In this document: positions 2,572 through 18,491 of the stretch, one piece after another
How positions within the stretch are numbered: the first letter of the stretch is position 1
Layout of the letters: the number at the start of each line of letters is the position of its first letter
Notes under the pieces: generated by a model
What the model was told of the DNA's origin: nothing
The model's database searches: none
The model's input: the letters and a program-made list of their open reading frames with translations, nothing else
Source of the DNA: a virus
Virus record (IMG/VR): IMGVR_UViG_3300035698_001033
Coordinates: 1 to 41,030 of that record
Strand: one strand, 5' to 3'
DNA length: 41,030 nt
Program-made: the position numbers and the translations under genes

Positions 2572-3225
2572 ATGATAATAACGAAATATATCGAAATGAA
2601 GATTTCATCCAGTAACATGAAATATTGGCAATCAAAGGGTTATTCATTTGATAATCCAGCGCCGCGATGGGGAATCATACCAAGAATTAAAGTATTGGTG
2701 TCTGAACTTCTGAGCGGTTCGTGTGTTGATGTTGAATGTAAATGTGATCTATGTGAAGAAACTTATACGCAAAGATATAGTAGAAATACTGATACTTGTT
2801 ACACATGCCGCAAAAGCATTCAGATGAAGGGAAATGTTGCTGGTAGAGCTAATAAGGGCAGAATAATGCCTAATATGCAAGGGACGAATCATCCACGTTG
2901 GAATTCCAACAAAGATGCCCAGAAAGCATATTATGCGAATGTGCTGAGAGTTACAAGATTAAATGACTTATCGTCTTTGAAGAATTATGACAAACCTCGA
3001 GGTTTGTGTGGCCAAGAAGGGGCTTATCAACTAGATCATATCATATCAATTAAATATGGTTTTGATAATAATATTGCTCCCGAGTTATTAGGTCATATAA
3101 ACAACTTAAGATTTATACCCTGGCAAGAGAATAGGAATAAACACATGAATATAAACGAAACACAAATCAAATCAGTTATGAGTAACATCATTGCAACACA
3201 AACTCAAATAGGAGAGATATATTAA
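2572..3225 (+). CDS. HNH homing endonuclease between genes 18 and 19
   Basis: Free-standing HNH endonuclease, 217 aa. Residues about 55-85 hold two CxxC pairs (CDLC and CYTC), probably a zinc-binding module. The nuclease part is near residues 150-195: YQLDHIISIKYGFDNN, then NNLRFIPWQENRNK, the H...N...N pattern of the HNH/treble-clef family. The same block occurs in the HNH protein at 16141-16737 (YQLDHIITIKFGFENG, NLRMLPWKDNL), so the two are paralogues. The gene is wedged between tail sheath and tail tube. Its stop overlaps the gene 19 start (TAATG) and its last codons contain the GGAG ribosome binding site of gene 19. An AAAGGT lies upstream of the ATG. No late promoter is seen directly ahead, so it is probably read through from gene 18. 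Confidence 0.85.
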   Translation: MIITKYIEMKISSSNMKYWQSKGYSFDNPAPRWGIIPRIKVLVSELLSGSCVDVECKCDLCEETYTQRYSRNTDTCYTCRKSIQMKGNVAGRANKGRIMPNMQGTNHPRWNSNKDAQKAYYANVLRVTRLNDLSSLKNYDKPRGLCGQEGAYQLDHIISIKYGFDNNIAPELLGHINNLRFIPWQENRNKHMNINETQIKSVMSNIIATQTQIGEIY

Positions 3226-10498: not shown

Positions 10499-11311
10499 AT
10501 GAAAGAATGGAATACAATAACCTTAAAAAAGAAGAACCAAGCGTTTTTGCATGTTGATGCCGAGCCTTCTATACTCAATGAGTTAACTGACTTCTTTGCT
10601 TTTCAACCTGAGGGATATCAGTTCATGCCCTCATATAAGAACAAGCAATGGGACGGCTACATTCGCATTTTTAACTCGAGAGATAGACAGCTGCCTATTG
10701 GGCTCTATACTTATGTTGAAGAATTTGCCAAAACTCGAGATTACAAGATCGAAGTAGAGCACAATAACTATTATGGCATGCCTGGGACTCTACACTCTTA
10801 TGATATGGAATGGATCAATGACTGCACTTTTACTTCTCGCGGCGCACCTATAAAGCATCACGACTATCAATTAGCCGCGGTAGAGCATTGCCTAGAGAAT
10901 AGAAACTCTTTGGTTATATCTCCAACTGCGTCTGGCAAATCTTTTATTATATATTCTATACTTCGTTATTATCTTGACAACAACGAAAAAGATATACTAA
11001 TTGTAGTGCCAACAACCTCACTTGTAAAACAAATGAATAGTGACTTCGCGGATTATTCAGAATTTGACGACGGGTTTATGTCTGATGATCTTTGCCATAT
11101 TATATACTCGGGGCAAGATAAGGTACCACCCACAAAAGTATACATAGAAATAGAGACGATTGATGGTAAATTGTATAGATTTTTAGGCAATGCGTTTATA
11201 GATATTATAAATAACAATAAGAAATGTAAAATAAGAGCAGACGAACTAAATGAATCTCACGAAATTGACGATAAATGGCTACAAGGGCAAGAACATAAAC
11301 AAATATTATAA
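10499..11311 (+). CDS. uvsW: UvsW helicase, N-terminal piece ending in foreign sequence
   Basis: N-terminal half of the UvsW SF2 helicase, which unwinds R-loops and branched DNA and shifts replication to the recombination mode. The DNA-binding N-terminal domain (FFAFQPEGYQFMPSYKNKQW, DGYIRIFNSRDRQLPIGLYT) is followed by HDYQLAAVEHCLENR, the Walker A loop SPTASGKSF (about residue 141) and VVPTTSLVKQMNSDFADY. UvsW similarity stops at IIYSGQDK (about 11122). The last 60 residues (KVYIEIETIDGKLYRF ... IRADELNESHEID) are foreign and faintly resemble the middle of an intein Hint domain, without a catalytic N-terminal Cys block. The DEAH half is a separate ORF at 12076. I chose the ATG at 10499 (GTGGG 7 nt upstream) over an in-frame ATG at 10487. 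Confidence 0.88.
   Translation: MKEWNTITLKKKNQAFLHVDAEPSILNELTDFFAFQPEGYQFMPSYKNKQWDGYIRIFNSRDRQLPIGLYTYVEEFAKTRDYKIEVEHNNYYGMPGTLHSYDMEWINDCTFTSRGAPIKHHDYQLAAVEHCLENRNSLVISPTASGKSFIIYSILRYYLDNNEKDILIVVPTTSLVKQMNSDFADYSEFDDGFMSDDLCHIIYSGQDKVPPTKVYIEIETIDGKLYRFLGNAFIDIINNNKKCKIRADELNESHEIDDKWLQGQEHKQIL
11206..11213 (+). promoter_or_regulatory. T4-type late promoter inside the uvsW insertion, ahead of the HNH gene
   Basis: Exact TATAAATA 37 nt upstream of the HNH ORF start, inside the foreign segment that interrupts uvsW. The HNH gene at 16141 has the same arrangement. Confidence 0.6.
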
Positions 11312-12098
11312 TTGGTATTGTAATATAATAGCTAACCGGTTAGCTAATCCTGTAGATAGAGACAATTACACCGAAAACCATCACATATTACCTAAATCTC
11401 TTGGTGGTTGTAATGCAAAAAATAATATGGTAAGATTAACAGCAAGGGAACATTATTTAGCACACGTGCTGTTGCCTAAATTTATAACGGACAAAGGTCG
11501 ATATTCTATGTTAAGGGCATATACAGCAATGTCTATGAAATCAAATAACACAGAAAGTCGTGTAACCAATAGGGTATACGAAAGTCTAAAAAGAGACCTT
11601 GCAGCCATGATGTCCGAAGATATGAAAGCTAGTTACAAAGATGGGCGAAGGGACGCCATCACTCAATCTGAGATGATGGTTGCTGAATGGAATTCGGGGA
11701 AAAGAGAAAATCAACGCGAGTTTATGAAAGAGCACAGTCCCTTCAATGATGAGGAAACTCATAAGAAGTCTATAGAAACTCGTACTAAAAATAAAACGAA
11801 TGTGTGGAATACTAACAATCCTATGCAAAATCCTGTTTTTGTTCAGAAAAAACTTGATTCTATGCCTGATATGAAAGGTAGAAAGTGTTGGTATAATACT
11901 GTAACCTATGAACGTACTCAAGCAAACGAAAAGCCCGGAGATGATTGGATCCAACAAGGTCACAATAAGGGTACTACAACTAAAGCGAAGGGTCGATCAA
12001 AACCCAAAATCAAATGTGAATATTGTGATAGAGCTATGGCGGCACATTGCATCCCTAAACATATAAGATCATATCATGAAAATAAAAAAAATAACTAG
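11250..12098 (+). CDS. HNH homing endonuclease inserted in uvsW
   Basis: HNH endonuclease, 282 aa. The nuclease core is near residues 40-75: NYTENHHILPKSLGG, NAKNNMVRLTAREHYLAH and VLLPKF, the T4-type HNH pattern seen in intron-encoded and free-standing phage enzymes. The middle is polar and helical (NPMQNPVFVQKKLDSMPD). The C-terminus (KCEYCDRAMAAHCIPKHIRS) forms a Cys2His2-like zinc finger. It overlaps the end of the UvsW N-piece by 62 nt and the start of the C-piece by 23 nt, each in a different frame, so it sits exactly in the break of uvsW. A late box lies 37 nt upstream. The typical family start (near NKYYNWYCNII) lies 15 codons in, but no better start codon is there, so 11250 is kept. 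Confidence 0.88.
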   Translation: MNLTKLTINGYKGKNINKYYNWYCNIIANRLANPVDRDNYTENHHILPKSLGGCNAKNNMVRLTAREHYLAHVLLPKFITDKGRYSMLRAYTAMSMKSNNTESRVTNRVYESLKRDLAAMMSEDMKASYKDGRRDAITQSEMMVAEWNSGKRENQREFMKEHSPFNDEETHKKSIETRTKNKTNVWNTNNPMQNPVFVQKKLDSMPDMKGRKCWYNTVTYERTQANEKPGDDWIQQGHNKGTTTKAKGRSKPKIKCEYCDRAMAAHCIPKHIRSYHENKKNN

Positions 12099-12990
12099 AA
12101 AAACTACAACACCCAGAATTGTAATATCAACATGGCAGTCTATATACAAGCTCAATAAGAGTTGGTTTGAAAGGTATGGTTGTGTCGTAGTGGATGAAGC
12201 GCACCTCGCTACAGCAAAGTCTCTGACCTCTATTATGTCCAACTTATCAGAAGCAGCATATAGATTTGGCACTACCGGTACTATCAAAGACAGCTCTGCA
12301 AAGAGCCATAGATTGCAGCTTGAAGGTCACTTTGGTAAAGCACATTACGTGACAACAACCAAGAAACTTATTGATGATGGAACTCTCGCTGGCCTGAATA
12401 TTAACATTCTATTGTTGAAGTTTAGAGATGAAGAATGTAAGTTAGTTAAGAAGATGAAGTATCCTGACGAGATTGATTTTATTGTTCGGCACGAAAAACG
12501 TAACAACTTTATCAAAAATCTTGCTCTTGATCTAGATGGTAATACTTTAATCTTGTTTCAGTTTGTGGAAAAGCATGGTATACCACTACATGCTCTTATA
12601 GAAAAGCATGCTCACGAAAGAAGAAAGATCTTTTATGTGTCTGGTAAGACTGATGCCGATACCAGAGAGTATGTACGGAAACTAACTGAAACACAAAAGA
12701 ATGCGATTATTGTTGCTAGTTTAGGTGTATTTTCTACAGGTATAAATATTAGGAACCTACACAATATTGTCTTTGCATCTCCGTCGAAGAGCCAAATTAA
12801 GATTTTACAATCGATAGGACGTGGTTTGAGAAAATCTGATGATGGAAGAATTACAACCGTGTATGACATTGCAGACGACTTGCATTGGAAATCACATAAA
12901 AATTATGCATTAAATCATGCAGCAGAAAGAATTAAGATATACAGTCAACAAGAATTTGATTATAAAGTTTATGAGGTACCTTTAAAATGA
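12076..12990 (+). CDS. uvsW: UvsW helicase, C-terminal piece
   Basis: C-terminal two thirds of UvsW. UvsW similarity starts at about residue 10 (TTTPRIVISTWQSIYKL), which directly continues the N-piece. It includes the DEAH box (VVVDEAHLA, D40-H43), motif III-like FGTTGTIKD, and the second RecA domain with FYVSGKTDADTREYV, IIVASLGVFSTGINIRNLHN and the arginine-finger motif QSIGRGLRKSDDG. Upstream of the ATG there is no good ribosome binding site, and the same frame is closed by a stop at 12064, so independent initiation or coupling to the HNH ORF would be needed. Together the two pieces hold all helicase motifs and could form a gene-in-pieces enzyme, as mobE-split NrdA does in phage Aeh1. Confidence 0.88.
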   Translation: MKIKKITRKTTTPRIVISTWQSIYKLNKSWFERYGCVVVDEAHLATAKSLTSIMSNLSEAAYRFGTTGTIKDSSAKSHRLQLEGHFGKAHYVTTTKKLIDDGTLAGLNINILLLKFRDEECKLVKKMKYPDEIDFIVRHEKRNNFIKNLALDLDGNTLILFQFVEKHGIPLHALIEKHAHERRKIFYVSGKTDADTREYVRKLTETQKNAIIVASLGVFSTGINIRNLHNIVFASPSKSQIKILQSIGRGLRKSDDGRITTVYDIADDLHWKSHKNYALNHAAERIKIYSQQEFDYKVYEVPLK

Positions 12991-16070: not shown

Positions 16071-16115
16071 ATGATAAGTTTTACTAAACTGAAATGGAAA
16101 AATGGAAATGTATAA
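16071..16115 (+). pseudogene. 46: Detached 5' end of gene 46 (start codon and ten codons)
   Basis: ATG at 16071 opens MISFTKLKWKNGNV and then stops. The first 11 residues match the expected gp46 N-terminus and also the start of the intact gp46 frame after the HNH gene (IIHFTKLRYKN at 16776-16808); 23 of 33 bases are the same. I read this as the original or a foreign start of gene 46, cut off by the HNH insertion. It could also act as a translated leader ahead of the HNH gene. Confidence 0.7.
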
Positions 16116-16118
16116 ATA
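16111..16118 (+). promoter_or_regulatory. T4-type late promoter ahead of the HNH gene in gene 46
   Basis: Exact TATAAATA 23 nt before the HNH start codon, right at the point where gene 46 similarity breaks off. Confidence 0.7.
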
Positions 16119-16140
16119 ACTCCATACAAAAGAGATTAAT

Positions 16141-16737
16141 ATGCGTTTATCAGAAGAAGATATATTATGGGTTAAAGACCATACCTATGATGAAATTATG
16201 AAGAACTTTAATATATCTAGACCTACAGTAAGCAGATTATTAAAGCATTATCAAATATGTGCAAAGCGCCAAGTTGGAAGTGGACCAAAACACGGGCCAA
16301 AAAATAACAAAATTTGCGGGGAGTGTGGAGTGTTAATGTTAGTCGTTCCATCTAGCAATCGTAAATATTGTTCTAGATCATGTATGCATATAAATGAGGA
16401 ATATCTAACTAAAGTACGAAATATTGATAGATCATATACGCAGACTGAGTCATTCAGTAAGGCTCAAAGCAAAGACACTACGCCAGAATTTAAAAAATTT
16501 GGAGGTAGAGTGCATCGACTTACACAGAAAATATATGAAATGTACAAAGAGGAAATTAATCCGAACGATCATCCCCGAACTATATGTGGTGTTGATGGCG
16601 GATACCAACTGGACCATATTATAACGATTAAATTCGGATTTGAAAACGGCCTTTCAGCTGAGGAATTGTCTCAAAAAGATAACTTAAGGATGTTACCTTG
16701 GAAAGACAATCTGATGAGAAATTGGTATGAGAAATAA
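16141..16737 (+). CDS. HNH homing endonuclease at the start of gene 46
   Basis: 198-aa HNH endonuclease. The N-terminus (EDILWVKDHTYDEIMKNFNI, SRPTVSRLLKHYQI) is a helix-turn-helix like those of resolvases and other HNH proteins. A zinc-binding pair of CxxC-type motifs follows (CGECGVL and CSRSC). The nuclease core is GGYQLDHIITIKFGFENG with NLRMLPWKDNL near the C-terminus, shared with the HNH protein at 2572-3225. It has its own late promoter and a modest AAAGAG ribosome binding site. It sits precisely between an isolated copy of the gene 46 start and the rest of gene 46. Confidence 0.88.
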   Translation: MRLSEEDILWVKDHTYDEIMKNFNISRPTVSRLLKHYQICAKRQVGSGPKHGPKNNKICGECGVLMLVVPSSNRKYCSRSCMHINEEYLTKVRNIDRSYTQTESFSKAQSKDTTPEFKKFGGRVHRLTQKIYEMYKEEINPNDHPRTICGVDGGYQLDHIITIKFGFENGLSAEELSQKDNLRMLPWKDNLMRNWYEK

Positions 16738-16775
16738 CTTAATGCAAAATTACATAATGAATTGGGGTACTACCT

Positions 16776-18491
16776 ATTATACACTTTACTAAACTTCGAT
16801 ATAAAAACTTTCTCAGTACGGGCGATGCTTTTACTGAGATTGCTCTTGATCGATCTCAAACTACACTAGTTGTAGGCAAGAATGGTTCTGGAAAGTCTAC
16901 TATGACAGATGCTTTGTCATTTGCACTATTTGGCAAACCTCATAGAAACATCACAAAGCCACAACTGATAAACTCTATTAACGGAAAGAATTGTGTAGCG
17001 GAAGTTGAATTTAATATAGGAAAGCAATCTTTTCTTATTATACGAGGCATCAAGCCTGCTCGTTTTGAAATATATCAGAATGATACATTAATCAACCAAG
17101 ATGCAAAAGCAAGGGATTATCAGAAGTTTCTTGAACTCAACATAATTAAGATGAACCACAAATCGTTTCATCAGATTGTAGTTTTAGGTTCTAGTTCTTT
17201 TATTCCGTTTATGCAGCTGCCTGCTGGTCATCGGCGCGAAGTAATAGAAGATCTTTTAGATATAAACATATTTTCTAAAATGAATAGTATCATGAAAGAT
17301 CGACTTAATAAGAATAAAGATCATCTAAAAGAAGTTGTCTATCAGAACGATCTTCTTAAAGACAAGATAGATATGCAGAAAGGTCATATAGACAAAGTAG
17401 CAGTACTTAATCAGAACACTTTGGTTGGTATACAGACAGAAGTTGAAAGCCTTGCAGCAGACATAACTAAGTATGATCAACACAACAGCGACTTACAGTC
17501 AGAGATCGATACAAGGTTTGATGTGGTATTAAAAGAATTGAATAAATCTAACGATCAAAATCTTAAGTTGGTTGAATACGCCGCACAATTCAAACAAAAA
17601 ATGAATGATATAGTAAAGGATGCTAAGTTCTACACGGACAATGATCATTGTCCTTCGTGTGGTATTCAAATTGAGGAAAATACCAAGAATCATAATATCA
17701 GATCGTGTGAATCAAAAGCAACAGAGTTGCAACAGGCAATGGCAACTCTTGAAGATACTTCAAATTCAAACAAATTGGCCATGACTGAACTACAGCAAGA
17801 GATGGACAAAATGAATGATCATAAAGGGACCATTCGAAATAACATGTCTGTTATCAAAAGACTGAATAGTATTATCAATAATAAGAATGCTGGTCTCATT
17901 AAATTAAGTAATCAGGATGGAGATATTGGTGTAGCAACCGAAAATCTAAATGATCTTATAAATCAAAGAGACATTATGGTTGAAACTAAATCTAAACTTA
18001 ATGAAGAGCAAACGTATTTTAATGCTTGTAATGAGATGTTGAAGGACACAGGCATAAAGACAAAAATCATAAAAGAGTATCTTCCTGTCATGAATATTAT
18101 TGTAAATAAGTATTTACAGATTCTTGACTTCTTTGTGGACTTCAACATCGATGAAAACTTTAACGAGACCATCAGATCAAGATATAGAGATGCTTTCAGC
18201 TATTCCTCATTCAGTGAAGGGGAGAAGATGAAGATTGATATTTCCTTGTTATTTGCGTGGCGACAGATCGCGAAGTTAAAGAACAGCGCTAGCACCAACT
18301 TGTTGATATTGGATGAAACATTTGACTCTAGTCTTGATCAGGACTCAGTTGATAACCTTATGAAGATAATGGACACTCTGGGCACCGAAAGCAACACCTT
18401 TATCATATCTCACAAAGGCGATATGCTCGCGGATAAGTTTCGATCTAAGATAGAATTCGTCAAGTCTCGTAACTTTAGTGTCATAAAATAA
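16776..18491 (+). CDS. 46: Recombination nuclease ATPase subunit (gp46, Rad50-like), apparent ATT start
   Basis: ABC-type ATPase partner of gp47. Read from ATT at 16776 the product is 571 aa (T4 gp46 560 aa): IIHFTKLRYKNFLSTGDAFT, Walker A GKNGSGKST (about residue 34), coiled coils around the zinc hook CPSC (about residue 292), signature FSEGEKMKIDIS and Walker B LLILDETFD. There is no ATG, GTG or TTG between the in-frame stop at 16758 and residue 42; the first ATG (16902) would delete Walker A. A GGGG at 16764-16767 is well placed for an ATT start at 16776. So either a rare ATT start is used or the gene is damaged by the upstream HNH insertion. The downstream reading frame is fully intact. 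Confidence 0.9.
   Translation: MIHFTKLRYKNFLSTGDAFTEIALDRSQTTLVVGKNGSGKSTMTDALSFALFGKPHRNITKPQLINSINGKNCVAEVEFNIGKQSFLIIRGIKPARFEIYQNDTLINQDAKARDYQKFLELNIIKMNHKSFHQIVVLGSSSFIPFMQLPAGHRREVIEDLLDINIFSKMNSIMKDRLNKNKDHLKEVVYQNDLLKDKIDMQKGHIDKVAVLNQNTLVGIQTEVESLAADITKYDQHNSDLQSEIDTRFDVVLKELNKSNDQNLKLVEYAAQFKQKMNDIVKDAKFYTDNDHCPSCGIQIEENTKNHNIRSCESKATELQQAMATLEDTSNSNKLAMTELQQEMDKMNDHKGTIRNNMSVIKRLNSIINNKNAGLIKLSNQDGDIGVATENLNDLINQRDIMVETKSKLNEEQTYFNACNEMLKDTGIKTKIIKEYLPVMNIIVNKYLQILDFFVDFNIDENFNETIRSRYRDAFSYSSFSEGEKMKIDISLLFAWRQIAKLKNSASTNLLILDETFDSSLDQDSVDNLMKIMDTLGTESNTFIISHKGDMLADKFRSKIEFVKSRNFSVIK

Follow-up and report, generated by a model that had tools for sequence, protein, structure and literature searches.

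The window considered here, i.e., the whole stretch of DNA that was analyzed (41,030 nucleotides of the IMG/VR virus record IMGVR_UViG_3300035698_001033), carries a uvsW gene in two pieces with an HNH homing endonuclease gene between them. The features of the locus are listed below, where L104 is a close relative with an intact uvsW, and L301–L304 are phages with a split one.

10499–11122, plus strand: native part of UvsW-N, an open reading frame (ORF) with the Pfam domains UvsW_N, ResIII, and DEAD, 88% identical to intact L104
11123–11311, plus strand: element part 1, a 62-residue tail (11123–11308) fused to UvsW-N, with its stop codon; homologous tails occur in L301–L304
11206–11213, plus strand: late promoter box of the T4 type, TATAAATA, lying 44 bases upstream of the HNH start codon
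11250–12098, plus strand: element part 2, the HNH homing endonuclease gene (282 residues), with conserved HNH residues and mobE-like matches in phages
12076–12102, plus strand: element part 3, the UvsW-C start codon and a 9-residue leader (MKIKKITRK); leaders occur in L301–L303
12103–12990, plus strand: native part of UvsW-C, with the end of Pfam ResIII/DEAD and Helicase_C; E 9.6e-61 to T4 UvsW (2OCA), the nearest solved structure to the split protein

The UvsW-N ORF runs from the ATG at 10499 to the stop codon at 11309–11311, and its native part, which ends in GQDK (K codon at 11120–11122), holds the N-terminal domain, Walker A (PTASGKS), and motif Ia (VPTTSLV). The UvsW-C ORF starts at 12076 and stops at 12988–12990; its native sequence begins with TTTPRIVISTWQ at 12103, is 92% identical to L104, and holds motif Ib (STWQS), the DEAH box, and the second RecA domain. 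An earlier note, made from the letters alone, had placed the break and the resumption of UvsW similarity at these positions, and the ORF check confirms both to the base. It had also described the tail, HNH gene, and C-piece as out of frame with one another, with Walker A on one polypeptide and the DEAH box and second motor domain on the other. The three ORFs indeed lie in three different frames (the tail and HNH gene overlap by 62 bp, the HNH stop and UvsW-C start by 23 bp), and the Pfam domains divide between the two pieces accordingly.

The HNH residues ENHHILPKSLGG..N..LTAREH are conserved in the endonuclease. Boxes of the form TATAAATA are enriched in the window (14, against 5.6 expected, with none of 100 shuffles reaching as many), and each of the five split loci discussed here has one at −44 relative to the HNH start codon (exact in three, with one mismatch in two). 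The codons under this box are conserved tail codons, so where it lies is, by itself, weak evidence for a promoter; the late box that had previously been attributed to the HNH gene is confirmed. No RNA hairpin was found just upstream of the HNH gene on the late transcript, and the whole window gave no Rfam match, including to the conserved group I intron core, and a group I intron at uvsW was rejected on this ground.

The closest relatives, L104 and L105, have an unbroken uvsW (UvsW-N identity of 88% and 79%, respectively) and make the empty site visible. They read YSGQDK-NTKKR-ITITTWQSIYKL at the site, and the window reads YSGQDK, the insert, then TTTPR-IVISTWQSIYKL. As the five-residue loop is retained, no UvsW residue has been lost; a loop duplicated in both halves had been considered and was discarded because the empty site is visible in these two phages. 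The intact gene in L104 and L105, together with the open HNH gene between the pieces, bears out the reading that an HNH insertion has put uvsW into pieces. Structure modeling of the unbroken L104 protein (mean pLDDT 86) puts the site in loop 214–224, between strands 210–213 and 225–229; in the first RecA-like domain, this is a surface loop joining strand 3 to strand 4. The locus was also found in four other metagenomes, whose contigs (one of them the 198,785-base G001 of the same phage) are 100% identical to the window locus across the parts they cover, so the split is not an assembly error. At window 11354–11359, within the HNH gene, the assembly from metagenome 3300023237 is interrupted between contigs L094 and L085, perhaps due to strain variation.

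Of the other UvsW relatives first fetched (160 matches, 126 of them unique), L143 alone is split at the site, and the rest read through it; no uvsW with a complete intein at this position was found. L143, whose locus is that of L301, was found by a scan with an HNH profile; L302, L303, and L304 were found by scanning with two tails (those of the window and L301). In these four divergent phages, uvsW is split at the same loop with an HNH gene of the same family between the pieces, which brings the split uvsW to five different phages, including that of the window. L301 has a UvsW-N whose tail is 52% identical to that of the window, then the HNH gene, then a UvsW-C starting with MKIRKI. A homologous tail is present in all four, with a length of about 50–60 residues in the element, and an MKI(K/R)KI leader opens UvsW-C in each of the three further phages that have this piece on the contig (MKIRKIQHQ in L301, MKIKKIEHK in both L302 and L303). 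The overlaps measure 41 and 11 bp in L301–L303, and 41 bp in L304, where the contig ends ahead of UvsW-C.

The tail shows the marks of a selected protein. Over the 105 nt before the HNH start (35 codons, pooled over the six pairs of L301–L304, which are not independent), pN/pS is 0.23 in the tail frame versus 0.98 and 1.49 in the other frames, and the differences fall mainly at codon position 3. Inside the overlap with the HNH gene, the tail frame is still constrained (0.20 versus 0.98). This speaks strongly against read-through junk. The tail had earlier been called foreign, which holds with respect to UvsW; as a protein feature, though, it belongs to the element and is conserved, rather than being a by-product of insertion. 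Early BLAST extensions had suggested that it continues UvsW, but profile scoring against shuffles found nothing past KVYI. The window tail has untypical codon usage, and searches for the tail in isolated phages, the PDB, and prokaryote genomes gave no match. It is unstructured in the one model made of UvsW-N with its tail, which says nothing on the tail, as it was run without tail homologues.

Comparison with inteins requires the tail family. The window tail alone is not significant against inteins in profile tests and was rejected as an intein on its own, and neither TIGR01445 nor TIGR01443 matches in the window (the positive control for the latter, nrdA of G001, was found). The family of five tails, however, matches the profile of intein N-halves (Int-N) with an hhalign P of 0.0013 and a score of 21.2, where 60 column shuffles gave 10.3 (sd 2.1, maximum 18.2). 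The match is nearly gapless and collinear with positions 62–98 of the 107-column profile, i.e., its last third, and leans on a short motif, AKDLKETDEI. The leader of UvsW-C resembles, by eye and over its nine residues, the starts of intein C-halves (Int-C), such as MKLIRRSEITK in L117 and MKLKSITKVGK in L205. The splicing ends are missing: the tails start with V or other residues, with no conserved Cys, Ser, or Thr as block A nucleophile; the block-B T..H pair is replaced by LGNA, NGNE, EGNE, or DGNQ; and the leader has neither a C2 motif nor a terminal Asn before Cys, Ser, or Thr. The tail and leader are thus likely to be the remnant flanking an intein split point, with both splice junctions gone. 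Because the window tail by itself stays below significance, an intein ancestry of the uvsW element is likely but not proven. The earlier note was right in finding an intact intein unsupported; what it overlooked is this probable ancestry, to which the Int-N-like tail family points, as well as the recurrence of the split in divergent phages, the protein-level selection on the tail, and the nrdA of the same phage.

Two split inteins occur in the same phage (G001). In its nrdA (L116, G001:C1:68500-76500), a fractured gene, a class 1-type split intein is complete and accompanied by an HNH gene, the order being N-extein with complete Int-N (CMTGDT...CTPDH...), stop codon, late box, HNH gene, and Int-C (...FFANDILVHN) with C-extein. 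This HNH protein belongs to the same family as that of uvsW (about 40% identity). The second split intein (L117, G001:C1:52000-56500) belongs to a P-loop protein, whose Walker A motif it interrupts (GGAG|C...HN|SGKGF); its halves lie about 320 bases apart, with no obvious endonuclease gene between them. Related arrangements were observed elsewhere. In L091 and L093, a split intein interrupts the terminase large subunit; its short N-half continues in frame into an HNH endonuclease of the uvsW-element family, and the C-half begins the next ORF. In L205 and L215, an HNH gene of this family is followed by an ORF opening with an intein C-half (MKLKSITKVGKKKVYDITVAGNHEYVLSNGLVVSN) before recombinase-like sequence. 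In L135 (2893–3198), a split-intein N-half directly follows a helicase DECH box (FDECHR|CLVGGT). A motif scan for intein halves beside 58 HNH loci counted none, but it overlooks known kinds such as L205, and this zero carries no weight.

Between L302 and L303, the tail and HNH protein are 85% and 75% identical, but UvsW-N only 57%, and pS is 0.37–0.57 in the tail and HNH gene versus 0.63–0.80 in uvsW for the same set of pairs. In the UvsW-C tree, the window groups with the intact L104 and L105 (100/100), and L301–L303 with the intact L002 and L297 (100/99), forcing at least two changes of state. An element that is better conserved than its host gene and present in at least two lineages most likely moves by homing.

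Taken together, the position of the tail and leader and the sequence of the tail family correspond to the middle of a split intein without its splicing ends, which makes descent from a fractured-gene split intein most likely. We therefore favor, with fair confidence, the reading that uvsW holds a homing element that came from such an intein, that does not splice, and whose tail probably aids the association of the unspliced pieces. On this reading, the split is not a random break. The element consists of the tail, the HNH endonuclease gene with its late box, and the MKI(K/R)KI leader, and it has entered uvsW at one exact point, turning the gene into two pieces without removing UvsW residues. 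Judging from its family, the HNH enzyme presumably nicks element-free uvsW, the repair of which would copy the element in. The tailed UvsW-N and the leader-bearing UvsW-C would be two distinct proteins, whose synthesis is probably coupled at translation, and would have to assemble non-covalently; the helicase motifs and the constraint on both pieces (pN/pS of 0.25–0.44 between split phages) agree with two pieces forming a helicase. The tail would be kept by selection, most plausibly for helping the halves associate or for shielding an exposed edge, and could assist assembly, perhaps with the leader. A narrower version is more tentative, and we hold it to be possible rather than probable: a split intein that lost its splice junctions may have become a non-covalent clamp on a two-chain helicase, in which selection retains the intein middle, with UvsW-N bearing it as the tail and UvsW-C as a strand-like leader, and with the element still homing between phages. 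If true, protein splicing could thereby give way to permanently split genes, as seen in five phages.

The best surviving alternative, which we nevertheless regard as unlikely, is a plain HNH insertion of the Aeh1 nrdA type, where the tail is functionless endonuclease leader DNA with no tie to inteins and the halves assemble by themselves. It would suit a window tail that alone resembles nothing and has untypical codon usage, and the enzymes Aeh1 NrdA and phage 25 gp43 do work in pieces (PMC2988022). Against it, all five phages share the tail, and its reading frame shows constraint that extends into the HNH overlap. Considerably less probable is the inactivation of uvsW in the split phages, with both ORFs decaying. 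UvsW-C has 21 changes unique to the window versus 3 unique to L104, an excess that is not significant against four neighboring genes (Fisher P 0.10), but the helicase motifs are kept, both frames are open in the four phages complete for both pieces, and pN/pS stays in the range given above. Six of the 21 changes lie within the first 18 residues (P 0.001 for an interval picked after inspection), a pattern as co-conversion or local adaptation would give.

About equally improbable is an unrecognized minimal split intein, where the tail and leader splice UvsW-N to UvsW-C by unusual chemistry. Split class 3 inteins manage without Cys1. The layout of the locus is also that of fractured genes with split inteins, such as nrdA of G001 or AceL NrdHF (PMC7891396), but the element lacks all the residues listed above and has only about 60 residues in all. 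RNA splicing joining the two ORFs can practically be dismissed, as the earlier note had already found it unsupported: similar HNH genes reside in group I introns (e.g., in the DNA polymerase gene of phage AC4), but there is no Rfam match, the insert is coding throughout, and such clean junctions as were identified manually either shift the frame or add residues.

Returning to the favored reading of a non-splicing, intein-derived element, it has likenesses to two known kinds of system. Genes in pieces made by HNH insertion include Aeh1 nrdA/mobE and T4 gene 39-60/mobA (PMC2988022), and the former, proposed earlier as the analogue, proves to be the right one. As in these cases, a mob-kind HNH gene divides a gene of an essential process into two ORFs, without an intron or intein, and with overlapping starts and late expression signals. 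Unlike them, the uvsW split recurs in five phages, with a selected tail, a leader, and empty-site sisters, and no description of an intein-like tail was found for either. The second kind comprises fractured genes that combine split inteins with a free-standing endonuclease (Dassa 2009, as cited in PMC10448857), with AceL NrdHF, from an Ace Lake phage contig, as another example (PMC7891396). Here, the order of N-piece, endonuclease gene, and C-piece is the same, the tail and leader stand where Int-N and Int-C would be, and the HNH family and late box are those of G001 nrdA. The differences are the absence of block A, the block-B residues, the C2 motif, and the terminal Asn, and a size of about 60 intein-like residues versus about 140 in split inteins, so that no splicing by known chemistry is expected. 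Split uvsW would thus work like an HNH-made gene in pieces, probably having come from a fractured-gene split intein. A third system, T4 segE, is also a homing endonuclease gene with uvsW as its target (PMC2988022), but it encodes a free-standing GIY-YIG enzyme, i.e., of another nuclease family, is situated between inh and uvsW, and does not interrupt the gene.

In the open-access literature, no description of a split uvsW or of a non-splicing intein tail was found. T4 gene 39/60, Aeh1 nrdA, and other genes in pieces have so far been single cases of unclear origin. As the split uvsW exists in five natural alleles and has sisters that lack the element, and as nrdA of the same phage offers a complete split-intein version, the origin of a split gene becomes directly testable, namely whether such genes come from inteins that stop splicing, and how the fragments of a RecA-like motor hold together. 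The tail, if it is a compact clamp, may also offer a non-splicing pairing tag for split enzymes.

Other genes of the window are associated with endonucleases. Endonuclease-like genes (by eye, GIY-YIG-like and HNH-like) lie at 24–719 and 2572–3225, next to the genes for the tail sheath and tail tube. Gene 46 is similarly hit at its 5′ end (16072–16902): MISFTKLKWKN, followed by GNV and a stop, begins at 16072, and is succeeded by a late box at 16111 and an HNH gene at 16141–16737. The gene then resumes as IIHFTKLRYKNFLSTGDAFTE with different codons, and with no ATG, GTG, or TTG until 16902, behind Walker A; its start is intact in L138 and L139.
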